Origin: Paramagnetospirillum magnetotacticum MS-1
Lineage (GTDB): Bacteria > Pseudomonadota > Alphaproteobacteria > Rhodospirillales > Magnetospirillaceae
Direction of reading: 5' to 3'
Assembly: GCF_000829825.1 (NCBI RefSeq)
Contig: NZ_JXSL01000030.1
Location: forward strand, 751,501 to 815,500
Length of the DNA stretch: 64,000 nt
Both the position numbers and the translations under genes were made by a program. The notes below the pieces were generated by a model that saw only the letters and a program-made list of their open reading frames with translations, was not told where the DNA came from and did no database searches. The stretch's first letter is position 1, and every line of letters begins with the position of its first letter. Shown piece after piece: positions 6,858-43,205 of the stretch.

Positions 6858-6859
6858 CT

Positions 6860-7627: not shown

Positions 7628-7684
7628 TGGCGGAGCTCCTGGTTCATGGGCGTTGAGGAAAGGTCGGGCGGAACCGGAGCCATA

Positions 7685-8740: not shown

Positions 8741-9848
8741 GAAGCGGCGTCCGGTAGAGGTTGGAGATGGCATCGTCGGGACGACCCAGCCGAGTGGACT
8801 GCTCGGGCGAATCCACGTCCACCCAACCGCCCGCCGCCTCGTCCGAGCGGTAGAAGGCGTGCAGCAGCTTCAGCGTGCCCAGGCAATCCTCGCGGCTGAC
8901 CGGATAGGCCTTGCCCTGATGGAAGTGGGCGGCGATGTCCCGGTACATCTGGGAATGGCCGAAGCCGTAAACGGCGCCGTTCCCTTCGAAGCTCTTGAAG
9001 TCCTCGGAATTGGCGGCGCAAGCGGCAGGGTCGGGGGTGAAGACCTGCAGCTCGTTGACGGCGATGCCACCGATCTGAGCCAGACCCTTCTCGCCGACGA
9101 TGGAGATGGAGGCCTCGAAATCGTCGGGCCGCGCCGCCGTGGTCACTTCCAGGACGCCAACCGCCTGGCTGCGATAGCGCATGGTGGCGACCACGGTGTC
9201 CTCCACCTCGATATCGGCACCCAGCGTGCGCATGGTGGCCGAGACCTGATCCACCTCGCCGCCCAGATGGCGCAGCAGGTCCACATGGTGGATGCCCTGA
9301 TTGGTGAGTGCCCCGCCATCGTGACTAAAGGTGCCGCGCCAGGGCGCCAGATCGTAGTATCGCTGCGGGCGGCACCAGCGCACCCGCACGCTCATGATAC
9401 GAATCTCGCCCAGTTCACCGGCAGCCAGAGCCTGACGCACCCGTGTCACCGCCTTGTTGTGGCGATTCTGGAACACCGGGAAGATGGAGAGATTCAGCCG
9501 GTCGGCCACGCCCCAGGCGTGCACCAGTTGTTCCGGCCGCATCATGGTGGGCTTTTCCAAGATGATGTGCTTGCCGAAGCGCTCCATCATCTCCAGTCCG
9601 TGTTCGGAATGCATGCCCGACGGCGTGATCACCGCCACCACGGAAATCTCGGGATGTTCCGCCAGCATACGCCGATAATCGGTATAGCTGGGGACGCCGA
9701 ATTCATTGGAATAGGCCAGGGCCTTGTCCTCGGCCAGATCGCAGACGGCGGCCAATTGGACTCCGTCGGTGGCGACGATGGAGCGGGCATGGTGCCCGGC
9801 GATGCGGCCACAGCCCACCAGGGCGACTTTTACGGTGTTGGTGCGCAA
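8733..9848 (-). CDS. Gfo/Idh/MocA family oxidoreductase, WlbA-like (copy 2), TTG start
   Basis: This 371-residue protein has the Rossmann motif VGCGRIAGHH near residue 12-21, EKPTMM with the catalytic Lys, and a block GGALTNQGIHHVDLL that closely recalls WlbA/WbpB, the UDP-GlcNAc(A) 3-dehydrogenases that start the synthesis of 2,3-diamino-uronates. No ATG or GTG lies in frame between an upstream stop and the Rossmann motif; a TTG at 9848 with the purine-rich GGGGAAG 7 nt away is the best start. It overlaps the large gene upstream by 19 nt. If it acts as WlbA does, a 3-aminotransferase and an N-acetyltransferase should follow: a DegT-like gene (406) and a hexapeptide acyltransferase (27963) are candidates in the window. 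Confidence 0.8.
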   Translation of the reverse strand: MRTNTVKVALVGCGRIAGHHARSIVATDGVQLAAVCDLAEDKALAYSNEFGVPSYTDYRRMLAEHPEISVVAVITPSGMHSEHGLEMMERFGKHIILEKPTMMRPEQLVHAWGVADRLNLSIFPVFQNRHNKAVTRVRQALAAGELGEIRIMSVRVRWCRPQRYYDLAPWRGTFSHDGGALTNQGIHHVDLLRHLGGEVDQVSATMRTLGADIEVEDTVVATMRYRSQAVGVLEVTTAARPDDFEASISIVGEKGLAQIGGIAVNELQVFTPDPAACAANSEDFKSFEGNGAVYGFGHSQMYRDIAAHFHQGKAYPVSREDCLGTLKLLHAFYRSDEAAGGWVDVDSPEQSTRLGRPDDAISNLYRTPLHG

Positions 9849-11479
9849 GGCGATTCTTCCCCATCCGTGGCTGGGCGCTCAATACCACCGATCAGCAGGT
9901 TTTTCCAGACTCCCATATCCACGGGAGAGAACAGGCGTCCGAAGGGCAACCGGGACGGCGGCTCGATGCGGTCCATGGCTGGCACCAGTTCGTCAAGCGT
10001 CACGGTGACAGGCCGGACGGCATCGGGCAGGATTTCGATGGCAACCCGGTCCTCGGGCAGCAGACGGAAGGTGGGCAGGCCCAGCAGCAACCCCTCCAGC
10101 CCGGTGGTGCCGGTGGAATAGACCACCGCCGACAGGGCTGGTTGCTCGGTCATGGGGACTTGAGTTCGTTCCAGCCCGCCGCCCTCGGTGAAAGCCTGAG
10201 GATACATGGGATGGTCCTTGACCAGAACCCGCCGCCCGGTGGCGGCAATACGCCGCGCGGCGTCCAGTTGCAATGCCGCGATGGATGGATTGGCCGATAG
10301 CGGCACGAAGACTGGCGCAGTCTGGTCATAGGGCCGCCCCTTCGGCTCGGTCAGGCGGAACGCTCCGCCGGTAACGATGCGTTGCTCGGGGATGTCCCAG
10401 TCGATCATCTGCTGACGATATTCGGGGCCATTGGCGACCATCACCCAGGGAATGGCGGCAAGCCCATCGGGGTTGGCACGGGGTGACTGGTTGATCTGAT
10501 GGCGCCCCACCACAGTATGCTGGTAACCGATTGTCGCGATTCCGGCCGCAGTGGCGGCGCGGCACAGATCCTTTTCCCAGCAATGGTTCTCCCATGGCCA
10601 GCACATCACCGACGGCCGCCGCTCGGCCAGAAAGCGGCGCTGGCAATGGATCTGCCAACGGTTCATGGCCGGACCGCCGCCGCCGTTCTCGTTTACGGCC
10701 GCCCGGCGGATCAGCATGCCGAACCGGCCGCCCTTTTCGGCCGGACTGGGCCGCCACGCCACCAGGGGCAAGGTCAGGGCGAACAGGGCCGAGCCCCAGG
10801 CATGGATGGAGGCGCTGCGTCCGTCGGCGGCCAGTTCAGAAGCCCTTGTCGGAGGGGCGTCGGCATGCAGCAGGCGGCGCAGCTGCGGCAAGGCCTTCAT
10901 CAGAGAACCGAAATAGGCATCGGTGCCGTCGGGCCTGCTCTGGGGATGGCCATAGACCAGCAGGATCGGCGCTTCGGCGGGAATATTGGTCTTCAGGCGA
11001 CGGGTCGCCAGGACCGCCCGGACCAGACGAAGCGCCAGCGCGCAGCGCGCCGCCAGACCGCGCAGGCCAAGCCGCAGGGTCGGCTTCAGCAGGCCCGGAG
11101 GCTTTCCGGCCTCGACTCCGGGCAGCCCGGCGATCTCGCGGAACAGCCAGGGGTCGTCGCACAGCATCAGCACAGACTCGGACCCCGCCGCCAGTTCCGC
11201 CGCCAGACGGCGCCAGGCCAGCATCAGACCGAAATCGGATCCGAAGGCTCCGCAGGCCACGCTGTGGGACAACTCCGCCGATGGCGTGCCGCCCAACCGG
11301 CGCGCCGTCTCCCACCAATCGTCCCGGCTCTGGTCGAAGGCCTGCTCCAGACGATGGGCCAGATCGGGCAAACGGGCGGTGGGATCAAGACCATCGGCAG
11401 CGGTATCGGTGACGGCCAGCCACCACCGCCAGGCATTTACGGCAGGTCGGTCGGCCGAGATGCGCAGCAGCAGGCTCAC
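9830..11479 (-). CDS. Putative surface carbohydrate biosynthesis protein, GT-B-like C-terminus
   Basis: This 549-residue protein starts at a GTG that overlaps the stop of the FkbM gene (GTGA, 11476-11479); a longer frame towards 12007 is a shadow of that gene. I do not recognise a precise family. The second half looks like a GT-B glycosyltransferase: a Trp-Glu-Asn motif (WPWENHCWEK), a strand ending in GYQHTVVG, an ANGPEYRQ segment at the domain hinge, a VLVKDHPMYP strand typical of CDP-glycerol- or sialyltransferase-like enzymes, and a late SAVVYSTGTTGLEG loop that resembles a nucleotide-sugar ribose-binding site. From memory it resembles Leptospira-type surface carbohydrate biosynthesis proteins (TIGR04326-like), but I am not sure. 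No membrane segment or signal peptide is evident. It probably acts in the cytosol on a glycan or activated sugar. Confidence 0.55.
   Translation of the reverse strand: MSLLLRISADRPAVNAWRWWLAVTDTAADGLDPTARLPDLAHRLEQAFDQSRDDWWETARRLGGTPSAELSHSVACGAFGSDFGLMLAWRRLAAELAAGSESVLMLCDDPWLFREIAGLPGVEAGKPPGLLKPTLRLGLRGLAARCALALRLVRAVLATRRLKTNIPAEAPILLVYGHPQSRPDGTDAYFGSLMKALPQLRRLLHADAPPTRASELAADGRSASIHAWGSALFALTLPLVAWRPSPAEKGGRFGMLIRRAAVNENGGGGPAMNRWQIHCQRRFLAERRPSVMCWPWENHCWEKDLCRAATAAGIATIGYQHTVVGRHQINQSPRANPDGLAAIPWVMVANGPEYRQQMIDWDIPEQRIVTGGAFRLTEPKGRPYDQTAPVFVPLSANPSIAALQLDAARRIAATGRRVLVKDHPMYPQAFTEGGGLERTQVPMTEQPALSAVVYSTGTTGLEGLLLGLPTFRLLPEDRVAIEILPDAVRPVTVTLDELVPAMDRIEPPSRLPFGRLFSPVDMGVWKNLLIGGIERPATDGEESPCAPTP
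9856..9862 (-). promoter_or_regulatory. Shine-Dalgarno that decides a TTG start
   Basis: On the minus strand the sequence GGGGAAG lies 7 nt before a TTG at 9848. Since no other start codon is available before the Rossmann motif of the WlbA-like dehydrogenase, this site supports the TTG start. Confidence 0.6.
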
Positions 11480-12417
11480 GGGGCGGCCGGAATCACCGAG
11501 GGGATGCGCGGCAATAACAGCAGATTGACGCAAGTCTCGGGAGGCTCGCCATCCAGCGGAATCAGTTGGAGAGAGGGGTTGGCGGGTGTGGGCTCCGGCG
11601 CCAGAAGAATGTGATAGTCCGGAAAGACCTCGCGGTACCAGCCGAAGCTGCGGCCCAACCGCGCCAACCGGGTCGAATGAGCCTCGACGATCAGAGCGGG
11701 TCGATGTTCCGCCAGGGTTCGGCGGCCGCCATCGATGATCAGCGGCTCGAAACCCTCGGTATCCATCTTGATGAAGCCGATCCGCCCGGTGATGCCCAGT
11801 TCGGCGACCACATCGTCCAGACGACGGACCGGCAACTTGCGCGACACATAATCGGCGGGCCGCTCCGCTATGTGCGAGGTGGCCAGGAAGCTCGAGGTTC
11901 CCTCGTAACCGCCCCCCGACACGTTGACGTTCATCTCCAACTCGCCGTCGGTGTCGCCCAGGCCGCAGCGCACCAGGGTGACATTGCGGATACCGTTGAG
12001 AGAGCAATTGAGCGAATTGCGCTCGGCCATCTCGTCCACCGGCTCGAAGGCGTAGACGTGCCCCTGATGGGCCAGGCGGGCCAGCAGGGTGGTGTGCACC
12101 CCCACATTGGCGCCGATGTCGAGAACGATGTGATCGGGGCGCACCAGCTTGCGCATCAGGAACTGCACCTCGGGCTCGTATTCGCGCGAGATGAAGCCAA
12201 CACGGCGGCGCGGCCGGGTGCGGGTGGCGAGGTAGGATCCGGCCGGGGCGTGATAGGCGATGCCGTCGTCGTTCTCGACCAGATAATCAGCCACGTAGAA
12301 TGGGTTGGTCAGTCCACCCAACTTTTCCTGCCCCGCGGTAAAACCACCAAGCAAACCCGCGGCCCGGCCGATCACCGGGTGGTTCAGCAGTTCCAAAAGG
12401 CTGGATTTCAAAGACAT
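11476..12417 (-). CDS. FkbM family methyltransferase
   Basis: This 313-residue protein has the SAM-binding motif IVLDIGANVGVHT (97-109), then AFEPVDEM with the acidic residue that contacts the ribose, a sugar-methyltransferase style KMDTEGFEP motif, and the hydrophobic end segment. These are the signatures of FkbM-type O-methyltransferases, many of which methylate sugars of surface glycans. I chose the ATG at 12417 because AGGAG sits 5 nt before it; the open frame extends 200 nt upstream with no such site. It is the first gene of the region A minus operon, divergent from the SGNH gene at 12563. Confidence 0.83.
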   Translation of the reverse strand: MSLKSSLLELLNHPVIGRAAGLLGGFTAGQEKLGGLTNPFYVADYLVENDDGIAYHAPAGSYLATRTRPRRRVGFISREYEPEVQFLMRKLVRPDHIVLDIGANVGVHTTLLARLAHQGHVYAFEPVDEMAERNSLNCSLNGIRNVTLVRCGLGDTDGELEMNVNVSGGGYEGTSSFLATSHIAERPADYVSRKLPVRRLDDVVAELGITGRIGFIKMDTEGFEPLIIDGGRRTLAEHRPALIVEAHSTRLARLGRSFGWYREVFPDYHILLAPEPTPANPSLQLIPLDGEPPETCVNLLLLPRIPSVIPAAP

Positions 12418-12465
12418 GTCGGCTCCTGCGGCCCATCGCCACCCGTAAAGGGAGTCATCCGACCG

Positions 12466-12494
12466 GTAATAAAGGCCGACTAGCCGGAGAGCAA
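12466..12494 (-). promoter_or_regulatory. Candidate promoter for the region A operon
   Basis: On the minus strand TTGCTC (12494-12489) and TATTAC (12471-12466) are 17 nt apart, about 50 nt before the FkbM start. The match to the sigma-70 consensus is only partial (3/6 and 4/6), so this is a weak call. The divergent 145-nt gap holds nothing else I can name. Confidence 0.25.
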
Positions 12495-12562
12495 GCATAT
12501 CATCAGCGCGAAGCGGGATGGTCAGTATCTCGATGCTTGTGGCATAGTGCCATCGCCCAAGC

Positions 12563-13615
12563 ATGATGGGGACGCACCTCCCGAGCCGCCTGCGCCCCGG
12601 CCGCCAACGGAACCTCATATTGCCAAGAGTCTACTGCCTGACCTTTGCCATCTGCCTTGGTGCATTGCTGTCCGTCAATGCCATCCCGGTTCCATCCTTC
12701 GACCCCGCCGGCCCCGCCACCATGTGCAACGGGGCTTCCATCGGGTTCGAATCCAAGATGCGCCATATCGCCGAAATTCCGCCGGTGGACATCATGCTGT
12801 TCGGCAACAGCCGGATCATCGCAGTCGGAACCGAGGAGATCGGTCTGCCCGGCGTCACGGTCTTCAACACTGGCTCGGGCGGCACGTCGTTTCGCCAAAG
12901 CGTGACTGTGCTGGAACAGGTCCTGGCGGCGGGCAAGGCGCCCAAAGTAGCGGTCCTGTCCTTCGACAACGTCACGCTGGCTTACGCTCAGAACGGTATC
13001 GACTGGCCCCCGGCCCCGGCTCGCTGGGCTATCACCCTGCGCGATATCCTGGCCCTGCCGACCGCGCCACACCGCATCCGCGCCGACCTGCGCTCTTACA
13101 ATCTGGGCCTGCTGGATCAGGAAATCAGCTTCACTGCCAAGCTGGCCAATATAAAGCTGCTGTGGCCGCGTCTGATGGTCATCTTCGGACAGGAACATCC
13201 CTGTCAAAAAGGCTATCGCCCCGATGGCAGCCGCCCCTGGTCGGCGCCGCCGAAGGCTGATCTGGGGGGTGGCCCTCTGCCCCCCTATGCCGTTACCGAG
13301 GCACGCTACCCCTTGCTCGAACACGATCTCGATCGCTTGAAATCAATGCAAGATCGAGGGGTTAACATAGTGGTCTATGAAAGCCCGCTCCTGCCCGCCA
13401 TGACCGAGGCGATAGAGCCCCTGCTGACCGAAGAGCACCGGACCCAGCGTCGCCGTCTGATGGAAGGCTGTATCGAACGGAGATTGCGGTGCCATCGCGC
13501 CCCTGTCCTGGCTGGCAATCCCGCCGACGGCTACTGGAACGACACCAATCATGCTCCGGCTCCGGCCCTAGGACGGTTTATCGCTGACCTAGCCCGGCCA
13601 CTGCTGGCCCCTTGA
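12563..13615 (+). CDS. SGNH-fold protein, orphan relative of MBOAT partner (AlgX/DltD-like)
   Basis: This protein of up to 350 residues has one membrane anchor near residues 23-42 and then a periplasmic SGNH-like domain: FGNSR (80-84) in the place of the GDS/GTSR block with the Ser nucleophile, and WNDTNHAPA near residue 331-339, a D-x-x-H block. Partners of MBOAT O-acyltransferases (AlgJ/X, DltD, PatB) look like this. It is closely similar over its whole length to the product at 29803-30819, which does sit next to an MBOAT gene; this copy has none. The start is uncertain: ATG 12563 or 12566 adds about 18 residues compared with the paralogue, and a TTG at 12620 would match the paralogue's length better. 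Function in O-acetylation or similar is inferred. Confidence 0.68.
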   Translation: MMGTHLPSRLRPGRQRNLILPRVYCLTFAICLGALLSVNAIPVPSFDPAGPATMCNGASIGFESKMRHIAEIPPVDIMLFGNSRIIAVGTEEIGLPGVTVFNTGSGGTSFRQSVTVLEQVLAAGKAPKVAVLSFDNVTLAYAQNGIDWPPAPARWAITLRDILALPTAPHRIRADLRSYNLGLLDQEISFTAKLANIKLLWPRLMVIFGQEHPCQKGYRPDGSRPWSAPPKADLGGGPLPPYAVTEARYPLLEHDLDRLKSMQDRGVNIVVYESPLLPAMTEAIEPLLTEEHRTQRRRLMEGCIERRLRCHRAPVLAGNPADGYWNDTNHAPAPALGRFIADLARPLLAP

Positions 13616-13626
13616 GCCTCCTTTGC

Positions 13627-13656
13627 TTGACCGTTGCGACGAGGCTGGTGTATTGC
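13627..13656 (+). promoter_or_regulatory. Candidate promoter upstream of the radical SAM operon
   Basis: TTGACC (13627-13632) and TATTGC (13651-13656) are separated by 18 nt in the 150-nt gap between the SGNH gene and the radical SAM gene. It could drive 13766-20850. The sequence match is fair but untested. Confidence 0.33.
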
Positions 13657-13765
13657 GTGCACGAGTGCTTGATCCGGCTCGATGGCGAGCCCACATCTGG
13701 CGGTATCCGGTGGCAAACGCCGCCGAAAGTTCCGGCTGGATCGCGCGGCGGAGGCTTTGAGGGAC

Positions 13766-15196
13766 ATGCGAATTCTCTTGGTTTGGCCGAGGGGCAACAT
13801 GCCCTTCTACGTTTTGCCGATCAGCCTAGCCTATCTCGCCGCCAATCTTTCGGAACGACATACCGTCAAGGTGGTGGACTGCTCTGCCGACCAAATCCCG
13901 GAAGATTCGGAGGAATTTCGCCAGATCATCCGCGATTTCGCCCCCGATATGGTGGGTTCCAGCGCCACCTATGTGACCTATAACTACGCGGTCATGGCGC
14001 TGAAGACCGCAAAGGCGGTGTCGCCAGACATCATCACGATCATGGGCGGCGCCCATCCCAGCATCTATCCCGACCGCATCATCACCACCGATCGCGAGAT
14101 CGACTACCTGATGTGCGGCGAGGCCGAGCGCTCGTTTCCACGCTTCGTCGATGCCCTTGCCGACGGCACCGGATTCGAAGACGTCGCCGGTCTGGTCTAT
14201 CGACGGGGCGACGACATCGTCAAAAACCCGCTGGACCTGAATGCCGAGCTCGACACCCTGCGCAGGCCCGATTACGACGTCATGGGGTTGGAAAAATACA
14301 TCGCCCATGACTATAGCTACGGCGGTCTTTACGGTCGTAGCGCGCCCATCTGGTTCACGCGCGGCTGCCCCTTCGCCTGCACCTTCTGCTCGGCCTATCT
14401 GATCACCGGAAAGAAAGTGCGTCACCATTCCATGGATTACATGGTGGAATGGATCGACCATCTCTATCACCAGTACGGTATCCGCCAGTTCGCCTTCATC
14501 GATGATGGCCTGACCGTATTTCCGGACATTCCGAAGCAATTCTGCCGCACCATCATCGATCTGCGCCGCAAGGGCCATTGGGCCGAGCCGATCTATTTCA
14601 CCTCGCCCAACGGCACCCGCATGGAAAAGCTCGACGACGAGTTGCTGCGGCTGATGAAGGAAGCTGGCTGGCAGGGTCTGACCATTGCCCCGGAAAGCGG
14701 CTCGCGCCGGGTGCTCAAGCAAATCAAGAAGTCGCTCGATCCCGATATCGTCCCCGACGTGGTCCGCCGCATCAAGGCCGCCGGCCTGGGCGTGCGCGGA
14801 TTCTTCATCTTCGGCTTTCCCGGCGAGACACGGGAAGATATCGACGAGACCATCGGCCTGATCCGCAGATGCGATTTCGATACCTTTAATATCGGCCGTT
14901 TCCTGCCCATTCCCGGCACCCCCATCTTCAATCAGATGGTGGCGGATGGCGAGATTTCCGCCGATCACATCCCCGGCCAAGTGTTCGAATACGTCACCGC
15001 CTCGGAAGCCGGGCTGGGGACCTATACCCCCGCGACCCTGAAGGACGTGAACCTCAACCTGCTGGCCTTGCGCGAACAGATTTATCTCTACCTGCGCAAG
15101 CCGTCATCGATCGTCTATTTCGCCCGGTATTACGGTATCGGCCGGGTGCTGTCCTATATCCTGTTCATGGTGCGCAAGCGCTTTAAGGCGGCCTGA
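13766..15196 (+). CDS. B12-binding-domain radical SAM protein
   Basis: This 476-residue protein has an N-terminal cobalamin-binding-like domain (about 1-140, ending in the MGGAHPSIYP and CGEAE segments typical of these proteins) and a radical SAM core with CPFACTFC (C201, C205, C208) that binds the 4Fe-4S cluster. The strands GFFIFGFPGET and the C-terminal helices complete the B12-radical SAM (BchE/P-methylase) layout. Members of this class methylate unactivated carbons or rearrange carbon skeletons. The start at ATG 13766 begins directly at the first strand; a GGAGG-like site lies about 10 nt before it. It is the first gene of the cluster with a 2OG oxygenase and LIC12192-type protein, so an unusual modification of a sugar, lipid or aglycone is likely. 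Whether cobalamin is really bound is not shown by the sequence alone. Confidence 0.82.
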   Translation: MRILLVWPRGNMPFYVLPISLAYLAANLSERHTVKVVDCSADQIPEDSEEFRQIIRDFAPDMVGSSATYVTYNYAVMALKTAKAVSPDIITIMGGAHPSIYPDRIITTDREIDYLMCGEAERSFPRFVDALADGTGFEDVAGLVYRRGDDIVKNPLDLNAELDTLRRPDYDVMGLEKYIAHDYSYGGLYGRSAPIWFTRGCPFACTFCSAYLITGKKVRHHSMDYMVEWIDHLYHQYGIRQFAFIDDGLTVFPDIPKQFCRTIIDLRRKGHWAEPIYFTSPNGTRMEKLDDELLRLMKEAGWQGLTIAPESGSRRVLKQIKKSLDPDIVPDVVRRIKAAGLGVRGFFIFGFPGETREDIDETIGLIRRCDFDTFNIGRFLPIPGTPIFNQMVADGEISADHIPGQVFEYVTASEAGLGTYTPATLKDVNLNLLALREQIYLYLRKPSSIVYFARYYGIGRVLSYILFMVRKRFKAA

Positions 15197-15215
15197 TTCC
15201 GGGAGAATTAACGGG

Positions 15216-16019
15216 GTGTCCTCCGACTTCTTGACCGCCGAGGAACATGATCTGGCCCAACACTTCCTGGTCCAGGGGCGGGTTGTGCTGCCAGTCGAAG
15301 ACCGTGAAGGGCTTGATCGGCTGCGCAGTCACATCGCCCTGGCCGCCGCCGCCCATCTCGGCCTGCCAGCCCCCAGCGAGGCTGGCGTTTTTCTCGATTC
15401 CGTCCACAACCACGTCGATCCCGCCCGGCTGAACGACCTGCGGTTGGCGGCAATCGATGCGGTTAATGCCGCACCCTGGTCGCGACCGCTCTATTTCCGG
15501 CTGGCGCGGTCCGCGCTCTACGCCCTGGTGGGCAGCGAACTGGCCATGCAGCGCCGTCTCAACCTGTCGATCCAGCTCCCCGGCGATGCCTCGTCACTGT
15601 TGCCTCTGCATTCCGACGTGTGGTCGGGCGATTCGCCCTATGAGGTGGTGGTCTGGCTGCCCTTGGTGGATTGCCGAGCGACCAAGTCCATGTTCATCGC
15701 CTCGCCCGAGGCCAATATCCGTTGGGCGCCGCGCCTGGCCGAGTTCCGCTCCACCGAGGAACTCTTCCAGGCCGCCCGGACCGATCTCTCCTTCCTCGAC
15801 ATTTCCTACGGCCAAGTCCTGGTCTTCAACCAGACCCTGATGCACGGTAATCGCGTCAATGCCGAGGCCGAGACCCGCTGGTCCATGAATTGCCGTTTCA
15901 AGGGCGTGTTCACTCCCTATGCGGACAAACGAATCGGCGAATTCTTCGAGCCCATCACGCTCCGTCCTGCCAGCCGTGTCGGCCTGGAGTATCGCCTGCC
16001 AGGCGGAAACCCGCCATGA
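15216..16019 (+). CDS. 2OG-Fe(II) oxygenase, sporadic carbohydrate cluster type
   Basis: This 267-residue protein has the double-stranded beta-helix iron site of 2-oxoglutarate oxygenases: H132-x-D134 (LPLHSDVW), distal H210 (TLMHGNRV), and R221 for 2OG binding 11 residues later. It resembles the phytanoyl-CoA dioxygenase-like 'sporadic carbohydrate cluster' oxygenases that I recall from Leptospira and other surface-glycan loci. Such an enzyme could hydroxylate or desaturate an intermediate sugar. The start is a GTG at 15216, 20 nt after the previous stop. It ends in an ATGA overlap with the LIC12192-type gene. The substrate is unknown; the neighbour set is the best clue. Confidence 0.78.
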   Translation: MSSDFLTAEEHDLAQHFLVQGRVVLPVEDREGLDRLRSHIALAAAAHLGLPAPSEAGVFLDSVHNHVDPARLNDLRLAAIDAVNAAPWSRPLYFRLARSALYALVGSELAMQRRLNLSIQLPGDASSLLPLHSDVWSGDSPYEVVVWLPLVDCRATKSMFIASPEANIRWAPRLAEFRSTEELFQAARTDLSFLDISYGQVLVFNQTLMHGNRVNAEAETRWSMNCRFKGVFTPYADKRIGEFFEPITLRPASRVGLEYRLPGGNPP

Positions 16020-16426
16020 CCGAACTCCGCTTCGGCTATCGCGGCTATATCAGTTCGCGCCCCATCGGCGGCGACCGGGTGCCGCAGGCGGTACAGAATC
16101 TGACAGTCCGCGACTATGCTCGGCGCCGAGGGCTGGATTTCCTGTTGTCGGCCACTGAATATGCCATGCCCGACTGCACCATGATGCTGGAACAGGTGCT
16201 CGACGAGATGGCCGGGCTTGGCGGCGCCATCTTGTATTCCCTGGCCCAATTGCCCGATGACCGCGCCCGGCGCCGTGATATTCTGGAGCGGGCGCTGGCC
16301 AGCGGCGGCGTTCTCCATGCCGCGTTGGAAGACCTGAAATTGGCCAGCGGCGACGATCTCCGCCGCTGGGAAGACATCACCCTGGTGCGCCAGGCCCTGC
16401 CATTCTGCCCGAAAGAGCTTTCATGA
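16016..16426 (+). CDS. Sporadic carbohydrate cluster protein, LIC12192 family
   Basis: This 136-residue protein has the typical opening of the LIC12192 family: GYRGYISSRPI (7-17), a run with VPQAVQNL, then an LSATEYAMPDCTMML block near residues 43-57, and a C-terminal ALEDL. I recognise this from memory as the marker of sporadic carbohydrate clusters; its biochemical function is unknown. It has no membrane segment and only a few charged and aromatic residues that could form a site (Tyr, Glu and Asp in the ATEYAMPDC block). It is coupled by ATGA overlaps to the 2OG oxygenase before it and the radical SAM gene after it, so it probably acts with them in a complex or successive steps. Confidence 0.75.
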   Translation: MTELRFGYRGYISSRPIGGDRVPQAVQNLTVRDYARRRGLDFLLSATEYAMPDCTMMLEQVLDEMAGLGGAILYSLAQLPDDRARRRDILERALASGGVLHAALEDLKLASGDDLRRWEDITLVRQALPFCPKELS

Positions 16427-17490
16427 GCGCCGTTCTGTATTCCAATCTCAAATTCCTGCGGTTCAAGGACCAGCTCGACGCCCTGGCCGGAGGTACGGTC
16501 GCTCCGCCTGTCCACATCCGCATCAAGCCGACCAACCGCTGCAATCACAAGTGCTGGTACTGCGCCTATCGCACCGATGATTTGAAGCTGGGCGAGGACA
16601 TGGACGAGTCCGACCTGATCCCCGAAGCCAAGATGATGGAGATCGCCGACGACATTGTCGCCATGGGAGTCAAGGCGGTGACCTTTTCCGGCGGCGGCGA
16701 GCCGCTGCTCTATAAGCCCCTGCCCGAAGTGATCGACCGCCTGGCGGCTGGCGGAGTCCGGGTGGCGACCTTGACCAATGGCGCCAATCTCAAGGGCAAG
16801 GTGGCACAGTCCCTGGCCCGTCACGCCACCTGGGTGCGGGTCTCGGTCGATGCCTGGGACGACGACTCCTATGTCAGCAGCCGGGGCGCCAAGGCTGGCG
16901 AGTTCACCAAGCTGCTGGAGAACATGAAGGCCTTCGTTGAAACCGGCACCAAATGCGTGCTGGGCGTCTCTTTCATTGCAGGCAAGGACAATTACCACCG
17001 CCTGAGCGAGGTTTGCGCCCGCTTCAAGGCGATCGGAGTCAATCACGTCAAGCTTTCGGCCGCCGTGGTCGGCAATTCCGTGGACGAGAACAACCGCTAT
17101 CACCGTGAATTCGCCGAAGGGGCCAGGGCGGAGATCGAGCGGGCCAAGGCGCTGAGCGGTGATGGCTTTTCCGTCCTCGACCATTTCCATGAAATGGAAA
17201 GCCGCTTCGAGAAGGACTATCACCGCTGCCCCTTCCTTCAGTTCCTCACGGTGATCGGGGCGGACCAGACCGTCTACACCTGCCAGGACAAGGCCTATAC
17301 CAAGGAAGGCACCTTGGGCTCCATCCGCGGGCGCTCGTTCCGGGACTACTGGTTCTCCGAGGAGAACCGGCAGCGCATGGCCGAATTCGATCCCTCGCGG
17401 CTATGTCGGCATCACTGCGTTTCGCATTCGAAGAATCAGGCCATAATGCAGTATCTGTCCATCGATTCCGAGCACGGCCTTTTTGTATGA
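16423..17490 (+). CDS. Radical SAM protein with C-terminal SPASM-like cysteines
   Basis: This 355-residue protein has the radical SAM motif CNHKCWYC (C40, C44, C47), the glycine-rich SAM motif FSGGGEPLL (88-96), and four more cysteines near the C-terminus (C269, C287, C328, C332) that could bind an auxiliary iron-sulphur cluster of SPASM/twitch type. Auxiliary-cluster radical SAM enzymes oxidise or rearrange sugars and peptides (for example BtrN on an aminocyclitol). It overlaps the LIC12192-type gene and the ABC exporter gene by 4 nt each. A role in dehydrogenation or epimerisation of the cluster's sugar is likely but not proven. Confidence 0.8.
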   Translation: MSAVLYSNLKFLRFKDQLDALAGGTVAPPVHIRIKPTNRCNHKCWYCAYRTDDLKLGEDMDESDLIPEAKMMEIADDIVAMGVKAVTFSGGGEPLLYKPLPEVIDRLAAGGVRVATLTNGANLKGKVAQSLARHATWVRVSVDAWDDDSYVSSRGAKAGEFTKLLENMKAFVETGTKCVLGVSFIAGKDNYHRLSEVCARFKAIGVNHVKLSAAVVGNSVDENNRYHREFAEGARAEIERAKALSGDGFSVLDHFHEMESRFEKDYHRCPFLQFLTVIGADQTVYTCQDKAYTKEGTLGSIRGRSFRDYWFSEENRQRMAEFDPSRLCRHHCVSHSKNQAIMQYLSIDSEHGLFV

Positions 17491-19313
17491 ACGCCTTGCC
17501 CTGGACCACCATACGCGCCTGCATCGCCATGCTGGACCCGCCGCTGCGGCTGCGCTGGGCCGGGCTGGTGGTGCTGGCGGCAGGGGCCGCCCTGTTGGAA
17601 ACCATCGGCACCGGCGTCGTGTTCGGCCTGATCAGCGTCGTCAACGACATCGAAATCCTTGCCCGCCTCCCCGTCCTGGGGCCGCAGCTGTCCGAATTGG
17701 CCCGCCAAAATCAGGCCATGACCCTGGTGGTGCTTGGCCTTGCCGTGGTCGTCTTTTTCGTGGCCAAGAACTGCTATTTGTATTTTCAGATCTACAATCA
17801 GGAAAAGACCGGCTTCGACACCACGAGCATTGTTTCCGATACCTTGCTGCGCGGCTATCTCCAGGTGGATTACACCTTCCATTTCCGGCGCAATTCCGCC
17901 CAGTTGATCCAGACCCTGGAATATGCCGTCGATGACAGTTTCCGCAGCGCCTTGCTGTCAGCGGTGATCATGGTGTCGGAAATACTCGTGGCCATGGGCA
18001 TCGTCACGGTCCTCCTGGTCAGCGAGCCCAAAATCTCACTGGTGACCGCCCTGGTTCTTGGCCTGCTGATGCTGGGCACCTTGACGGCGACGCGCAGGGC
18101 CTTCTCGGCCATGGGCGCCCGGATCCAAGTTTTGCAGGCCCAGGTGATCCAGGCCATGCAACAGGCCCTGGGCGCGGTCAAGGAGGCCAAGGTCCTGGGG
18201 CGCGAGGATTTCTTCGCCGATCGCTATGGCGGCCTGTACCGGGAGAGAAGCCAATATCTCTGCCGCGCCTCGGTCCTGCAGCAGATGCCGCGTCTGGCCA
18301 TGGAGACCCTGATGGTCGCGGGGATGGTCCTGGTCATCACCTTGGTGGTGCTGGGCGCCGACCGACGCGAAGCGGTGCTGCCGACCCTGGCCCTGTTCGG
18401 CTATGCAGGCTTCCGGCTGCAGCCTTCGCTCAACCGTATCGTCTTGTACTTCAACAACATCCGCAAGGGGGCGGCGGCAACCCAGAGCATCAGCGGCGAC
18501 TGGCAAAGGCTGCGGCTTGCCGCGGCGCCACTCAGCCATCCGGCGCCGCTGGACTTCACCCGCCAGCTTGAGCTGGACGCGGTGCGCTACACTTATCCTG
18601 GCGGCGACCGTGAAATCCTCAAAGGGGTGACGCTGACCGTCCGGCGCGGCTCCTCCATCGGCATTGCCGGGACCACCGGTGCAGGCAAAAGCACGCTGAT
18701 CGACGTGGTGCTGGGCCTGCTGTCTCCGACCGGCGGTCGGGTGCTGGTGGACGGCGTCGACATTGCGGCGGACCCTCGCGCCTGGCAGCGTAAGATCGGC
18801 TATGTGCCTCAGGTGATCTACCTCACCGACGACACCTTGCGCCGCAATATCGCGCTGGGCATACCCGATGGTGAAATCGACGACGAGTGCATTCGTCGGG
18901 CAATATCCCTGGCCCAGCTCGACGATGTCGTGGCGGTACTGCCCCAGGGGCTCGACACCCGCCTGGGCGAGCGCGGCATCAATCTGTCGGGGGGCCAGCG
19001 CCAGCGTATCGGCGTCGCCCGCGCTCTCTACAACGAACCGGAACTGCTGATCTTCGACGAGGCGACCTCGTCGCTGGATTCCGAAACCGAGCGAGAGGTC
19101 TCGCGCGCCATCGAGGCGCTGAGTGGAGAAAAAACCGTCATCCTGATCGCCCACCGGCTGAGCACACTGCACAAATGCTCGGAGATCATCCTGCTCAAGG
19201 ACGGAGTGGTGGCCGGACGGGGCAGCTATGACGACATGATCAGCGGCAATGATGATTTCCGCCGCATGACCGAATTGTCGCAATTACCGTCGGCGACCGC
19301 AGGGGAGGGATAA
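17487..19313 (+). CDS. ABC transporter, fused permease and ATPase (flippase type)
   Basis: This 608-residue protein is a half-size ABC exporter of the MsbA/PglK type. An N-terminal membrane domain with about six segments (first near 23-50, the last near 273-292) is followed by the nucleotide-binding domain: Walker A GTTGAGKST (395-403), Q-loop Q442, signature LSGGQ (500-504), Walker B LLIFDE (520-525) and H-loop H556. It would form a homodimer in the inner membrane and flip a lipid-linked oligosaccharide or other lipid. The ATG at 17487 overlaps the radical SAM stop; an upstream start would lie fully inside that gene. The position suggests it exports the product of the surrounding genes. Confidence 0.87.
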   Translation: MNALPWTTIRACIAMLDPPLRLRWAGLVVLAAGAALLETIGTGVVFGLISVVNDIEILARLPVLGPQLSELARQNQAMTLVVLGLAVVVFFVAKNCYLYFQIYNQEKTGFDTTSIVSDTLLRGYLQVDYTFHFRRNSAQLIQTLEYAVDDSFRSALLSAVIMVSEILVAMGIVTVLLVSEPKISLVTALVLGLLMLGTLTATRRAFSAMGARIQVLQAQVIQAMQQALGAVKEAKVLGREDFFADRYGGLYRERSQYLCRASVLQQMPRLAMETLMVAGMVLVITLVVLGADRREAVLPTLALFGYAGFRLQPSLNRIVLYFNNIRKGAAATQSISGDWQRLRLAAAPLSHPAPLDFTRQLELDAVRYTYPGGDREILKGVTLTVRRGSSIGIAGTTGAGKSTLIDVVLGLLSPTGGRVLVDGVDIAADPRAWQRKIGYVPQVIYLTDDTLRRNIALGIPDGEIDDECIRRAISLAQLDDVVAVLPQGLDTRLGERGINLSGGQRQRIGVARALYNEPELLIFDEATSSLDSETEREVSRAIEALSGEKTVILIAHRLSTLHKCSEIILLKDGVVAGRGSYDDMISGNDDFRRMTELSQLPSATAGEG

Positions 19314-19975
19314 TGGCCGAGATCGATTTCATCGGGCGCTACCACAACGCCACCAAGCGGGATTATGTCCAGCGGGTGGTGGAGTACGACAAAGCCGAAT
19401 GCGCCGCGACCGCCAAGCAATGGGGCTTCGATTACTGGGATGGTGACCGCCGCCATGGTTTTGGCGGCATGCGCTATGATGGCCGCTGGCTGCCCCTGGC
19501 CGAGGATCTGGTCCGCCATTATGGGCTCAAGGCCGGAGACAAGGTTCTCGATATCGGCTGCGGCAAGGCGTTCCTGCTCTACGAAATGACCCGCGCCTGT
19601 CCCGGTTTGACCGTCGCCGGTCTCGACATCTCCGAATACGGCATCAACAATGCCAAGGAGGAGGTACGGCCATTCCTGACTCTCGGCAACGCCACCCGCC
19701 TGCCTTGGCCCGACCGCCATTTCGATCTGGTGATCTCCATCAACACCTTCCACAATCTGCAGATTCACGAATTGGATCAGGCGGTGCGCGAGATGCAGCG
19801 GGTGAGCACGGGGCGCGGCTATATCTGCGTCGAGTCCTATCGCGACGAAAGCGAGAAGGCCAACCTGCTGTACTGGCAGTTAACCTGCGAGAGCTTCCAC
19901 CGGCCCGAAGGCTGGCGGTGGGTGTATGACCAAGCCGGTTATACCGGCGATCACGGATTCATCTATTTCCAATGA
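19313..19975 (+). CDS. Class I SAM-dependent methyltransferase
   Basis: This 220-residue protein carries the class I motif VLDIGCGKAFLL near residues 78-89, an acidic loop in GLDISEYG, and the post-I motif DLVISINTFHN. The start ATG 19313 shares a base with the previous stop (TAATG) and follows a very strong AGGGGAGGGA site. It probably methylates a sugar nucleotide or glycan hydroxyl or amino group made in this operon; it lacks the Zn-finger N-domain seen in the methyltransferase at 54125. The reaction cannot be named. Confidence 0.8.
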   Translation: MAEIDFIGRYHNATKRDYVQRVVEYDKAECAATAKQWGFDYWDGDRRHGFGGMRYDGRWLPLAEDLVRHYGLKAGDKVLDIGCGKAFLLYEMTRACPGLTVAGLDISEYGINNAKEEVRPFLTLGNATRLPWPDRHFDLVISINTFHNLQIHELDQAVREMQRVSTGRGYICVESYRDESEKANLLYWQLTCESFHRPEGWRWVYDQAGYTGDHGFIYFQ

Positions 19976-20850
19976 CCAAGCTCCTCATCCTCGGCGCCTC
20001 TTCCTCGGTCGGTCGCCATCTCTGGACCCGGCTGGGACCGGATCAGGCCATCGGCACCTATCGCTCGCATGAACTGGCCGGTGGCCGTCGCTTTGATTCG
20101 GTGACCCAATCCATCGCCCAAGTGATTCGCCCGGGCGAGTCCAGCCATGCCGTCATCCTGCTGGCCGATCCCCAGCCCGATTCCTGCGTCAAGGACCCGC
20201 AGGTCTCACACCGGCTCAACGTCGTCGCCATGACCCGGCTGGTGGAGGATTTGTGGGGCCTGGGCATCACCCCCATCTTCGCCTCCACCGAATTCGTCTT
20301 CGACGGGGTCAAGGGCGACTATGTGGAGACCGACGAGGCGCGGCCCATCCTGCTTTACGGCCGCCAGAAGAAGGAGGTGGAGGATTTCCTCCTGGCATCG
20401 GGCAAGCCTCACGCCATTCTGCGCTTCGCCAAGGTCTACGGCACCGAGCCCGGCGACGGCACCTTGTTCAGCGCCTGGATCGCTCAGGCCCTGGGTGGCG
20501 CCACAGCCATGCGCTGCGCCGCCGATCAGGTGTTCTCGCCCGTTCATGTGGGCGATGTGGGCGAGGCGATTCTGCGAGTAGCCGAACGCGATCTCGGGGG
20601 TATCTACCATCTTTCGGGCAACCAGCGTTTTAATCGCCTGGAATTGCTGGAAATGACCCTGGCCGCCCTGGTGCGGCGAGGCTACCCGCGCATTGCCGTG
20701 GAGCCTTGCTCCATCGACGACTTCAACCTGCCGGAACGCCGACCCAAGGATGTCTCCATGCGCGCCGAAAAGCTGATCGCCGCCACCGGCATGACCATGA
20801 TGAACCCGGAAGACGCCATCGATGTCTTGCTCCGCAAGGCCCTGGCCTGA
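19972..20850 (+). CDS. RmlD-like sugar-nucleotide reductase/epimerase (SDR)
   Basis: This 292-residue extended SDR protein has an N-terminal glycine-rich turn LGASSSVG (7-14), STEFVF with the conserved Ser/Thr, and the catalytic Tyr-Lys pair in LLYGRQKKEVE. It most resembles RmlD, which reduces a 4-keto sugar nucleotide. The N-terminal motif differs from the textbook GxxGxxG in that the middle is Ser-rich, so cofactor choice may differ. It overlaps the methyltransferase by 4 nt and is the last gene of the sporadic carbohydrate operon. A final reduction step after radical SAM/oxygenase chemistry would fit. Confidence 0.75.
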   Translation: MTKLLILGASSSVGRHLWTRLGPDQAIGTYRSHELAGGRRFDSVTQSIAQVIRPGESSHAVILLADPQPDSCVKDPQVSHRLNVVAMTRLVEDLWGLGITPIFASTEFVFDGVKGDYVETDEARPILLYGRQKKEVEDFLLASGKPHAILRFAKVYGTEPGDGTLFSAWIAQALGGATAMRCAADQVFSPVHVGDVGEAILRVAERDLGGIYHLSGNQRFNRLELLEMTLAALVRRGYPRIAVEPCSIDDFNLPERRPKDVSMRAEKLIAATGMTMMNPEDAIDVLLRKALA

Positions 20851-23799: not shown

Positions 23800-25419
23800 C
23801 TAGCCGCGTTCAGCCTGCTTGCGGGCGCGGCGCCGGGCCATGGCGTCTTTCAGCCGGTGTTCCAGCACGGTGGTGCTGGTGCCCTTGCCGAGAAAGGCAT
23901 TGCGGATGGTCCGCCAGATGCGCGACGGATGGCGAAGATAGCCGACGATATAATTGCCCAGCATGAAGGTGATGCGGTACAGCGCCAGCTCGGCCGCCCC
24001 CATATTGGTGTTGAAGGTCAGCGGGTTGAAGCGGGTGTAGTCGCTGTTGAGCGAGGTCAGCGACAGAAAATAGCCGTCATTGACAATCATCCGCCCGGCC
24101 TCATCCAATTCGCGGAACAGTTCGCTGCCGGGATAGGGCGAGAAGATGTTGATGGAGACCTCGTCGGCACCCTTGAACGCCAGATAGAGGCCGTAGCGCA
24201 CGGTATCGAACACGTCGCGCCGGGTCTCGTGCGGAAACCCGATGATCAGGTTGCAACGGATGACCAGCCCCACCTTCTTGGCAATCAGGGCCGACTCCGT
24301 CAGCTTATCGAGCGAGATCTTCTTCTTGATCCGCTCCAGCGTGCGTGGTGAACCGCTCTCCGGGGCATAGACCAGATAGTTGCAACCGGTCTGGCGCAAC
24401 AGGGTCAAGACCTCCTCATCCAGCGCCTCGCTGCGGGTACCCGACGGCAGCGACCATTTGACCGCGATGCCCTCGTCGATCATCCGCTGGCACAGATCCA
24501 CCGCCCAATCCTTCTTGACGATGGCGGTGAGGTCGTAAAGCTGGAAGGCGGTAGCGCCGTAATGGGCGATATAGTGCTTCATCTCGGCGATGACATCGTC
24601 CACAGCACGCAAGGAATAACGGGTGGTCCACATGCGGGGATTGGAGCAGAAGGTGCACTGGAACGGACAGCCGCGCGAAATCATCATCGGCATGTCGCGG
24701 GCGGTCTGGACGCCATAGGACTTGCCCGCCGTCCAAAAGCCCTCGAGATAACCCTCGGGCCACCAGGGCCAGGGGATATTGTCGATATCACGCACCCGGG
24801 TCGGCTCGGAGGTGACGACGAAACGGCCCTCGGCATCAAGATAGGCAATGGAGCCCACCACCGAAAGATCCTCACCGGCAGAGCGAGCCTCCAGCAGGCG
24901 ATAGAAGGTGAACTCGCCCTCGCCCAGAACGCAGGCGTCGAGACCCGAATCACGGATGGAATATTCGGTAAGCGCGGTGATGTGCTCGCCACCGCCCACC
25001 AGGAAGGCGTGAGGGAAACGGATGCGGACGGCGCGAATCAGATCGCGCTGCACCGGCCACTCGCCCGAGAACATCACCGAGAAGCCGATGACCTCCGTAT
25101 CTTCGGGAATCCGCGCCACGATCTCGTCGATGGTCAGGCCCTGGGCCCAATAACCGGGATAATTATCCAGAGGATAGGTACGGTTCAGTCCCTCGGCGAT
25201 ACCGTCGAGGAACAAGGGATCATAGCCATGGGCGCGCAGGAAACCAGCAACATAGGCCAGGCCGAGGGCGGGCACGGCCTCGTTGTTCAGCGCATTGGCG
25301 GTCATCACCACCGGGCCGCGCACCAGGGCGACCTTGGCCTTGGGACCGGTCGAGGCGGGAACCTCGCCAATCACCTGAACCAGCGGACGGATGCGCTCGG
25401 ACTTGTGGCTCTCGGTCAT
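23800..25419 (-). CDS. B12-binding-domain radical SAM protein (second copy)
   Basis: This 539-residue protein has an N-terminal cobalamin-binding-like domain (about 28-190, with VGGGEHIT at 141-148 and LGEGEFTF at 165-172) and radical SAM cysteines CPFQCTFC (C251, C255, C258). The remaining core motifs include YAPESGS and LIIGFPHET. It is the same class as the product at 13766 but is longer and clearly divergent, with an extra 30 residues at the front. It is coupled by ATGA overlap to a methyltransferase with a Trm112-like front end. Such pairs may modify a lipid, sugar or peptide carbon; the substrate is unknown. A convergent 41-nt gap separates it from the asparagine synthase, without an obvious terminator. 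Confidence 0.8.
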   Translation of the reverse strand: MTESHKSERIRPLVQVIGEVPASTGPKAKVALVRGPVVMTANALNNEAVPALGLAYVAGFLRAHGYDPLFLDGIAEGLNRTYPLDNYPGYWAQGLTIDEIVARIPEDTEVIGFSVMFSGEWPVQRDLIRAVRIRFPHAFLVGGGEHITALTEYSIRDSGLDACVLGEGEFTFYRLLEARSAGEDLSVVGSIAYLDAEGRFVVTSEPTRVRDIDNIPWPWWPEGYLEGFWTAGKSYGVQTARDMPMMISRGCPFQCTFCSNPRMWTTRYSLRAVDDVIAEMKHYIAHYGATAFQLYDLTAIVKKDWAVDLCQRMIDEGIAVKWSLPSGTRSEALDEEVLTLLRQTGCNYLVYAPESGSPRTLERIKKKISLDKLTESALIAKKVGLVIRCNLIIGFPHETRRDVFDTVRYGLYLAFKGADEVSINIFSPYPGSELFRELDEAGRMIVNDGYFLSLTSLNSDYTRFNPLTFNTNMGAAELALYRITFMLGNYIVGYLRHPSRIWRTIRNAFLGKGTSTTVLEHRLKDAMARRRARKQAERG

Positions 25420-26354
25420 GACGATCCCTCGGGCTTGGCGGCGGCACCGACCACGATCAGCCCCTGACGGCTCAACAACCGTGTCGACGTCATGGCGTGA
25501 TCCAGACGAATCAGGGCCCGCGACAGATCCCGGATATTGGGCAGGAAGCGGAACAGCCGATTAAACACCAGCACGTCGCTGTTCATCAGGAAGCAAAATC
25601 CGAGAAACCCGCACGTCTTCCAGGCCTCGACCCCGAAGCCCAGCTCTTTCAGCAAAGGCACGGTATCGTGATAACGCAAAGGCCGCTCGGTAAGATGGTC
25701 CAGGGCCGGAGCAAGGCGGTAGATCACCCAGCGGATCATGCGCCAGGGCAGGAAATCGCTCACCGGCTCGCGCCAATAGAAGCGCCCGCCGGGCTTGAGC
25801 ACCCTATGGATTTCCGAAAACAGGGCGCGACGGTCGTTGATGTGGTGGACGCCGCCGACCATGAACACGGTGTCGAGGCAGGAATCGGCCAGGGGCAAGC
25901 GGTTGGCGTCACCCTGAACGAACAGAAAGCGGGGATCGGGAAAGCTGGCCCGGGCCGCGCCCAGCATATTGGCGGAAATATCGATGCCGATGCCCTGGGC
26001 CATGCGCTCGCCGAACTGGCGGAAGGCCTCACCGCTGCCGCAGCAGATCTCGGCGGCGATGCCGATGGGCCGCCCTTCGACCACCGTCTCCAGCATCTGG
26101 TCGAGATAGGCCAGATATTCCTGGGTATGGGGATAGGACAGATTCTCCACATAGGCGGCGGCGACACCATCGTAATGCTGCTGCTGGACCTGGGCATCGT
26201 GTCCGATTCCGTCCTCGGCCAGCAGCGGCACCCCGCCGGAAACGCGATAGCGCCGGCCCGAGGGCTCGGCCACCAGGGCTGTCTCGCCCTCGGCACGCAG
26301 GGGCTCACCGCTTCTCGGACAACGCAGCAAGGACAACAGCAAGGAGTCGGTCAT
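25416..26354 (-). CDS. Class I methyltransferase with Trm112-like N-terminus
   Basis: This 312-residue protein has an N-terminal Trm112-like segment (LLRCPRSGEPL, then a GRRYRVSGGVPLL turn; only one of the usual Cys remains) and then a class I SAM domain with EICCGSGEAF, GIDISANML, and GGVHHIND. A C-terminal half with hydrophobic stretches resembles lipid or quinone methyltransferases (UbiE/Coq5-like). I chose ATG 26354 because the protein family pattern begins there; the frame is open to 26474, but the Shine-Dalgarno at the chosen start is weak. It is the first gene of a two-gene minus operon with a radical SAM enzyme. Confidence 0.72.
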   Translation of the reverse strand: MTDSLLLSLLRCPRSGEPLRAEGETALVAEPSGRRYRVSGGVPLLAEDGIGHDAQVQQQHYDGVAAAYVENLSYPHTQEYLAYLDQMLETVVEGRPIGIAAEICCGSGEAFRQFGERMAQGIGIDISANMLGAARASFPDPRFLFVQGDANRLPLADSCLDTVFMVGGVHHINDRRALFSEIHRVLKPGGRFYWREPVSDFLPWRMIRWVIYRLAPALDHLTERPLRYHDTVPLLKELGFGVEAWKTCGFLGFCFLMNSDVLVFNRLFRFLPNIRDLSRALIRLDHAMTSTRLLSRQGLIVVGAAAKPEGSS

Positions 26355-26524
26355 GGTGGCGACAGGCGACCGCACGGGAGAAATCTCCGGGGACACGGAT
26401 GGACCCTTCCCAGTATATAGCGCTTGGAACGAGCCGGGCGCGGCGCCATATTGCGCTCCGGCGACGGGTTCCATTTAGCACGCTCGCCAATCCGCAACAA
26501 GGTTTCATAGGCAAGGTCGATCCC

Positions 26525-39544: not shown

Positions 39545-39616
39545 TGTCCGGTTTTCGGAAGAGGCTCGAGTTCCCTTTGGCCTCCGAGTTTGCATTTCAG
39601 GATCGCGGTAGCGCAC

Positions 39617-42183: not shown

Positions 42184-42186
42184 GAG
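42182..42186 (+). promoter_or_regulatory. Shine-Dalgarno deciding a TTG start at 42194
   Basis: AGGAG lies 7 nt before a TTG at 42194 and partly covers the preceding TAG stop. The next epimerase has its Rossmann glycine motif at residue 11, so no later start is plausible; the strong site makes TTG the best start. Confidence 0.6.
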
Positions 42187-42193
42187 ATCGGCC

Positions 42194-43192: not shown

Positions 43193-43205
43193 GAGGGCGC
43201 GCCAG

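Follow-up and report, generated by a model that had tools for sequence, protein, structure and literature searches.

A conserved oxygenase-LIC12192 gene pair in Paramagnetospirillum magnetotacticum MS-1 and its possible place in a split-transketolase sugar pathway of the bradyrhizose type

The stretch of DNA analysed here (the window) comprises 64,000 nucleotides of Paramagnetospirillum magnetotacticum MS-1 (contig NZ_JXSL01000030.1, positions 751,501 to 815,500) and carries a run of seven genes at 13766-20850, in which the gene of a 2-oxoglutarate (2OG)-Fe(II) oxygenase (SC2) is followed by that of a 136-residue protein of the LIC12192 family (SC1). Our analysis suggests that SC2 and SC1, together with a radical S-adenosylmethionine (SAM) protein with a SPASM-like C-terminus and a methyltransferase (MT), are likely to finish an unusual, transketolase-built surface sugar of the bradyrhizose-pathway type. 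The pathway would be patchily distributed among bacteria, with its first half encoded downstream, at 39614-46540. This reading builds on gene families, synteny, gene pairing and homology to an operon matching the published bradyrhizose cluster, all of which could be observed directly. The genes of the run and of the downstream block are all on the plus strand.

The oxygenase and its constant partner

SC2 (15216-16019), which begins with a GTG codon, matches the NCBIfam model TIGR04324 with 293.1 bits (cut-off 150). SC1 (16016-16426) overlaps it by 4 nt and matches TIGR04323 with 154.2 bits (cut-off 55). Both family calls of an earlier sequence-only reading of this run thus hold, including the match of 16016-16426 to the LIC12192 model, on which that reading had made its proposal depend. 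The four oxygenase residues singled out there, H132, D134, H210 and R221, are identical in all 83 aligned oxygenases (the window, 81 related loci and one divergent copy described below); we take H132, D134 and H210 to be the HxD...H iron triad and R221 to be the 2OG-binding arginine.

The related loci were obtained from a genome scan with a seven-sequence alignment of SC1, which gave 122 relatives, the best 80 of which were used, and from one viral contig, making 81 in total. Each locus extends up to 10 kb on either side of SC1; many come from Bradyrhizobium and some are truncated at contig ends. Homologues of window genes were counted in them at E 1e-10 and 40% coverage. SC2 and SC1 are present together in 81/81 loci, amid sugar genes, as expected from the earlier view that the two families are paired in a carbohydrate setting, and in 80/81 they are adjacent from stop to stop on the same strand. 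Judged by record titles, the carriers belong to the Alpha-, Beta- and Gammaproteobacteria, the cyanobacteria and further groups. Among 398 genomes drawn over the phylum, seven contain TIGR04323 above its cut-off and the identical seven contain TIGR04324 above its own. Oxygenase matches below the cut-off are present in 12 further genomes of this sample, and nothing convincing as an SC1 was found around three of them (L168-L170).

The pair also occurs in a strongly diverged form. Locus L011 contains, in addition to its standard pair, an oxygenase of 31-32% identity (4089-4877) and an SC1-like protein (4867-5310; E 1e-4 in the open reading frame (ORF) set), so that in this one case SC2 and SC1 go together even when far diverged. 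The two ORFs overlap by 11 nt and are followed by a short-chain dehydrogenase/reductase-like gene; the standard pair lies about 4-5 kb downstream of them. A PDB search with SC1 gave nothing convincing, and one with SC2 gave phytanoyl-CoA dioxygenase alone, at E 0.88. SC1 is absent from the plasmid and phage collections searched. The viral contig (L088), listed in IMG/VR, carries at about 3150-4352 the gene for the C-terminal half of a transketolase, SC2, SC1 and MT in this order. Because SC1 is found in no phage record, this contig is probably a bacterial fragment.

The split-transketolase block and its conserved neighbourhood

The usual partners of SC2 and SC1, which the sequence-only reading had omitted, are located at 39614-46540 in the order epiA-HldE-epiB-HAD-APH-TkN-TkC, 19.6 kb downstream of the end of MT. 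TkN (44763-45620; PF00456, 165 bits) and TkC (45620-46540; PF02779 and PF02780) are the N- and C-terminal halves of a split transketolase, whose N-terminal, Pyr and C-terminal domains are all over gathering on two chains. Among solved structures, the best match of TkC is to a split transketolase (6yaj, E 4e-53), namely to its C-terminal chain. The genes epiA (39614-40627) and epiB (42194-43192) encode NAD-dependent epimerases/dehydratases (PF01370). The HldE-like protein (40615-42183) is a fusion of an N-terminal nucleotidyltransferase and a C-terminal PfkB kinase; its domain order is reversed, its HldE score of 186 bits falls short of the cut-off (521), and the rfaE models for domains I and II remain below their cut-offs. 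Its closest solved kinase is a heptose-7-phosphate kinase (4e84). The HAD-like protein (43206-43823) is a presumed phosphatase, labelled so from sequence reading, and is followed by an APH-family small-molecule kinase (43822-44763; PF01636, 57 bits).

Across the 81 loci, TkC and MT are present in 76 each, TkN in 74, epiB in 68, HAD in 67, epiA and HldE in 65 each and APH in 64. When the 43 Bradyrhizobium-type loci are reduced to five, 43 loci remain in total, with TkC and MT in 38 each, TkN in 36, epiB in 31, HAD in 30, HldE and epiA in 28 each and APH in 26. The most frequent order is epiA-HldE-epiB-HAD-APH-TkN-TkC-SC2-SC1-(SPASM)-MT. TkC is positioned directly upstream of SC2 in 29 of the 38 loci outside the Bradyrhizobium type. 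In the Bradyrhizobium locus L013, two genes for DegT-like aminotransferases (a name from sequence reading) are inserted between TkC and SC2, and the resulting spacing of 3.0 kb is seen in 42 of the 43 Bradyrhizobium-type loci. MT (19313-19975), a class I SAM methyltransferase, is the third core gene beside SC2 and SC1.

The SC1 nearest to that of the window among the 80 (75% identity) is from a 20-kb locus of a Magnetospirillum metagenome-assembled genome (L008). There, HldE-HAD-APH-TkN-TkC-SC2-SC1-SPASM-ABC-MT form a single co-directional run at 4074-14053, with 63-89% identity to the window. Because L008 has both blocks in one such run, the arrangement in the window looks like one operon that has been split apart. 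Pairwise distances of SC2 are correlated with those of SC1 (r 0.81), TkN (0.74), TkC (0.75), MT (0.71), epiB (0.77), HldE (0.66), APH (0.76), HAD (0.74) and, over eight loci, the SPASM-like radical SAM protein (0.88); each comparison covers 8 to 43 loci and none of 2000 permutations reached the respective r, although the correlations are partly due to shared species history.

The distance between the two halves in the window allows another explanation, namely that there are two pathways, in which SC2, SC1 and MT have moved to other substrates while the transketolase block serves the genes that follow it. Right after TkC, at 46567-49324 and in the place where SC2 and SC1 would stand, are epiC, a gene for an E1 alpha-like protein (PF00676) and one for a weakly E1 beta-like protein; a second thiamine diphosphate (ThDP)-type pair, such as E1 alpha/beta, is used by some C2-branched sugar pathways. 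A few relatives have SC2 and SC1 with no transketolase within 10 kb, which would also suit such a separation. However, both blocks are joined in L008, the nearest relative, and a search of the MS-1 genome at E 0.001 revealed neither another SC2 nor another SC1. We therefore regard two pathways as rather unlikely and retain the single, split operon as the better description of the window. Another contig of the MS-1 genome (C25; L171, 8613-10375) contains a further split-transketolase pair of 43% and 38% identity, which is at least 5 kb away from GMD-like and GHMP-kinase-like genes.

The bradyrhizose operon and the proposed pathway

Bradyrhizose was described by Busset et al. as a previously undescribed sugar of photosynthetic Bradyrhizobium (PMC4743980), and is presented elsewhere as a bicyclic sugar of ten carbons (PMC9912281). 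In Bradyrhizobium ORS285, the bradyrhizose O-antigen is reported to be lost when gdh, one gene of a cluster of eleven, is mutated (Busset et al. 2016, PMC4743980). Genome G638 (locus L129) contains exact matches to the annealing parts of the two gdh primers given there, at 9590-9613 and 9948-9970; they span 381 bp from end to end, in agreement with the gdh fragment of 300-400 bp stated in that paper. The primer sites lie in an eleven-gene run with the order HldE-like, nucleotidyltransferase, epiB-like, SIS isomerase, gdh, TkN, TkC, Zn-dehydrogenase, HAD, APH and MT, the names dehydrogenase, isomerase and nucleotidyltransferase being from sequence reading. The run is separated from the neighbouring same-strand ORFs by about 0.5 and 0.7 kb. 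We take it to be the published bradyrhizose cluster.

Seven of its eleven genes have homologues in the window: HldE (about 24% identity), epiB (41%), TkN (46%), TkC (44%), HAD (36.5%), APH (37-39%) and MT (53.6%). For the SIS and Zn-dehydrogenase genes no match was found in the window, and for gdh and the nucleotidyltransferase the matches reach 23-27% identity. The two systems are thus alike in these seven genes, and the bradyrhizose operon is one for an O-antigen sugar. They differ in that L129 has no match to SC1, SC2 or the SPASM-like radical SAM protein, whereas it contains gdh, the Zn-dehydrogenase, the SIS isomerase and a separate nucleotidyltransferase. Loci L040 and L075 are intermediate, with an HldE (50-51%), a nucleotidyltransferase (49-50%) and an SIS isomerase (53%) of the bradyrhizose type in combination with SC2 and SC1. 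Because seven genes are homologous and these two loci combine both types, the two operon types are, judged by their sequences, one family in which SC2 and SC1 mark one branch.

The distribution of the two types was compared in 265 Bradyrhizobium genomes. With up to three mismatches allowed, 13 of them match the annealing part of the forward primer for ORS285 gdh, and 12 of these carry epiB-SIS-gdh-TkN at that place (G638 and all but one of the 12 short loci L117-L128); G638 and G496 are the two genomes in which the operon was read from end to end. The remaining match, in G527 (L124), was rejected as due to chance, epiB-SIS-gdh-TkN being absent from it. TIGR04323 is present in 64/265 genomes and in none of the 12 with the gdh operon, where about three would be expected, which is weak evidence of exclusion. 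The gene pufM is present in 27/265 genomes, including 10 of the 12 with the gdh operon (G435 and G560 are without it), and TIGR04323 in 6 of the 27 genomes with pufM. The SC2-SC1 and gdh operon types may be alternatives in Bradyrhizobium. That a cluster of the window type makes bradyrhizose itself was considered and rejected, the gdh operon being a sister without SC1 and SC2, and TIGR04323 being found in 0/12 of its carriers.

Knowledge of the families would give the following pathway. The split transketolase would transfer a C2 unit to a sugar acceptor, giving a ketose phosphate that is either branched or lengthened to at least C7. An isomerase, whose gene is present in 12 loci of the thinned set of 43 and was not found in the window, may convert it to the aldose. 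A kinase, a phosphatase and a nucleotidyltransferase would then activate the aldose by a heptose-type logic, which is suggested because of the HldE-like protein, with heptose-7-phosphate kinase as its nearest solved kinase, and the HAD and APH proteins. The ADP-heptose pathway follows an HldE/GmhA/GmhB logic, and the window shares with it a kinase/nucleotidyltransferase fusion of the HldE type, as do some relatives an SIS isomerase. However, the HldE-like domains of the window are in reversed order and below the cut-off, and a split transketolase, an oxygenase and a methyltransferase are added. The epimerases would set the configuration, SC2, with its constant partner SC1, would oxidise a C-H position, and in a subset of strains the SPASM-like radical SAM enzyme could perform a second radical step. 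MT would methylate the sugar, and the exporter encoded here between the radical SAM and MT genes may flip a lipid-linked product.

It could be argued that the product is a decoration of the polyol-phosphate or CDP-alcohol type and not a chain-extended sugar, since an APH-family kinase is present and the nucleotidyltransferase matches an ethanolamine-phosphate cytidylyltransferase (3elb) and a putative cytidylyltransferase (5x9q). But the kinase fused to it is nearest to heptose-7-phosphate kinase, the split transketolase and two sugar epimerases suit a sugar, and the sister operon is linked to a ten-carbon sugar; we consider such a decoration very unlikely.

Several points weigh against the transketolase-built sugar that we favour. 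The product, like every reaction and their order, is predicted from family knowledge. The two halves of the pathway are 19.6 kb and many genes apart in the window, their joint function being deduced from relatives, and the transketolase pair on the other contig is present in the same genome. In the 20 kb of L008, epiA and epiB were not found, and within about 10 kb no TkN could be found in 7/81 loci and no TkC in 5/81. The HAD-like protein has no Pfam or NCBIfam match, leaving its label without profile support. The locus sample is biased, as it was drawn with two peptide patterns from the seven-sequence alignment, five of whose members are from Bradyrhizobium, and shared species history enters the distance correlations. 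Because SC1 and SC2 are absent from the bradyrhizose-type operon, bradyrhizose cannot be transferred as the product, and polar effects of the gdh mutation are possible according to Busset et al. (PMC4743980).

Composition of the seven-gene run and possible ancestry of SC1

All seven ORFs of 13766-20850 are present and co-directional, with the families listed by the sequence-only reading. The stop of the first gene (15196) and the GTG start of SC2 are separated by 19 nt; ATGA overlaps are found at 16016/16019, 16423/16426 and 19972/19975, and the exporter and MT genes share a base in TAATG at 19313. These junctions are as previously described except for that between the radical SAM and exporter genes, where the exporter ATG at 17487 makes it an ATGA overlap too.

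The radical SAM protein (16423-17490) matches PF04055 with 80.2 bits (gathering 29.5) and PF13186 (SPASM) with 20.2 bits, just below gathering (21.5), and is called SPASM-like for this reason. The four additional C-terminal cysteines noted earlier are confirmed: together with those of the CxxxCxxC motif (Cys 40/44/47), all seven are identical in 9/9 sequences. Its gene is present in 8/81 loci, always between SC1 and MT (8/8). The 608-residue protein at 17487-19313 is an ABC exporter by PF00664 and PF00005, both above gathering. Its earlier assignment to an MsbA/PglK type stands for the general exporter type and not for either identity, the scores for PglK (NF050066, 272.6 bits, cut-off 1000) and MsbA (269.2 bits, cut-off 602) being far below the equivalog cut-offs. 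An exporter homologue occurs anywhere in 9/81 loci (12/81 at E 1e-8 without coverage filter), and among the 81 loci it is next to the radical SAM gene, in the same place as in the window, in L008 alone (63% identity). Exporter and radical SAM genes do therefore co-occur with the LIC12192 gene, which the sequence-only reading had made a second test of its proposal, but in a minority of loci. It is plausible that this exporter would flip the lipid-linked product.

The first gene of the run (13766-15196) encodes a B12-binding radical SAM protein (PF02310 and PF04055) with a homologue in 1/81 loci, at 25% identity. The last (19972-20850) encodes an RmlD-like reductase (PF04321, 118 bits; TIGR01214, 124 bits, below the cut-off of 224) with homologues in 11/81 loci at 27-39% identity, or 12/81 at E 1e-8 without coverage filter. 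In the thinned set of 43, RmlD is found in 11 loci, the exporter in nine, the SPASM-like radical SAM gene in eight and the B12 radical SAM gene in one. Neither end gene was found in L008. The boundaries drawn earlier around the run are thus not kept, the B12 radical SAM, RmlD-like and exporter genes not being constant parts. The B12 radical SAM gene probably adjoins the conserved unit without being a member of it, and membership of the adjacent RmlD-like gene is doubtful. A pathway complete in the seven genes, both end genes and the exporter included, would agree with the tight, overlapping, co-directional arrangement of 15216-20850 and with the same order of the SPASM-like radical SAM and exporter genes in L008. 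However, the rarity of the end genes argues against it, and the run contains no sugar-activating enzymes, the usual partners lying elsewhere. This makes a self-contained pathway improbable, and we prefer the one divided between the run and the block at 39614-46540.

Elsewhere in the window, the minus strand carries at 23800-26474 another gene for a B12-binding radical SAM protein, which overlaps a methyltransferase gene by 4 nt; homologues of this radical SAM gene are present in 2/81 loci (26-27% identity). The proteins encoded at 12563-13615 and 29803-30819 are clearly related and on opposite strands. The former has no family from Pfam or NCBIfam, and the latter adjoins an MBOAT-like ORF (a label from sequence reading).

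Across 41 aligned members of SC1, 18 residues are invariant. Because many of these are charged or polar, they suggest a binding or active site. The SC1 sequence pointed on reading to the catalytic domain of the serine recombinases, a relationship that we regard as possible and for which the tests gave mixed results. The Pfam family matched by most SC1 members is Pox_F16 (3/41, best E 0.058), which PMC4304020 describes as a serine recombinase that has apparently lost its activity. In the same 41 scans, DNAPKcs_CC3 (E 0.0025) and DUF2499 (E 0.012) reach better E values in one member each, and the recombinase family PF00239 gave no row for any of the 41 at E up to 10. With hhalign, SC1 is colinear with 25 resolvases over 84 columns, a result equalled by 1/400 column shuffles with the extended profile; the score of the first SC1 profile was reached by 5/300. 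The raw hhalign scores of SC1 with SC2 (24.0), TkC (24.3) and APH (23.6) are higher than with the resolvases (18.3), over 18-24 columns vs 82. In a hidden Markov model (HMM) test, SC1 reached E 0.35 among 5687 ORFs, beneath a non-SC1 ORF. The mean resolvase-HMM score of SC1 (0.01 bits) is lower than that of the SPASM-like radical SAM protein (0.7) and the ABC exporter (0.59). A rank test gives p 2e-20, which takes related sequences as independent and so is not a probability. The catalytic positions are not kept: with the alignment extended colinearly, the recombinase serine falls on R15 (82/82) and DRLxR on F/M/L/P/variable. Set beside the serine recombinases and Pox_F16, SC1 has the colinear alignment and the three Pfam matches, but is without the nucleophile, the catalytic arginine and the DNA-binding part, and its HMMER match is non-significant.

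A more far-reaching proposal is that SC2 and SC1 are an oxidation module in which SC1 would be a former recombinase domain that has lost its nucleophile and now serves as the partner of a sugar oxygenase or as a new active site. Added to a transketolase pathway of the bradyrhizose type, this module would lead to a surface sugar not described so far, oxidised and methylated and with either an extended chain or a carbocycle, that is patchily distributed across several phyla. We consider this possible but doubtful, and slightly more doubtful than we otherwise would because two unrelated Pfam families surpass Pox_F16 in single members.

Searches of open-licence PubMed Central full text for 'sporadic carbohydrate cluster', LIC12192, TIGR04323, TIGR04324 and SpoChoClust found no paper, in line with the earlier statement that no pathway had been described, and those pairing transketolase with the O-antigen, higher-carbon sugars or nucleotide sugars showed nothing relevant among the matches listed. 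The families TIGR04323 and TIGR04324, whose curated cut-offs SC1 and SC2 well exceed, are known from NCBIfam, where they are named for a 'sporadic carbohydrate cluster' without a pathway; placing them in a split-transketolase sugar pathway like that of bradyrhizose appears to be new. The families of this cluster would thereby gain a pathway, a set of regular partner genes and, in the bradyrhizose operon, a relative that has been studied genetically. An orphan pair is turned into testable chemistry, concerning the acceptor of the transketolase, the target of the oxygenase and the reason for its constant 136-residue partner. It also suggests that bradyrhizose is one product among a wider family of pathways.

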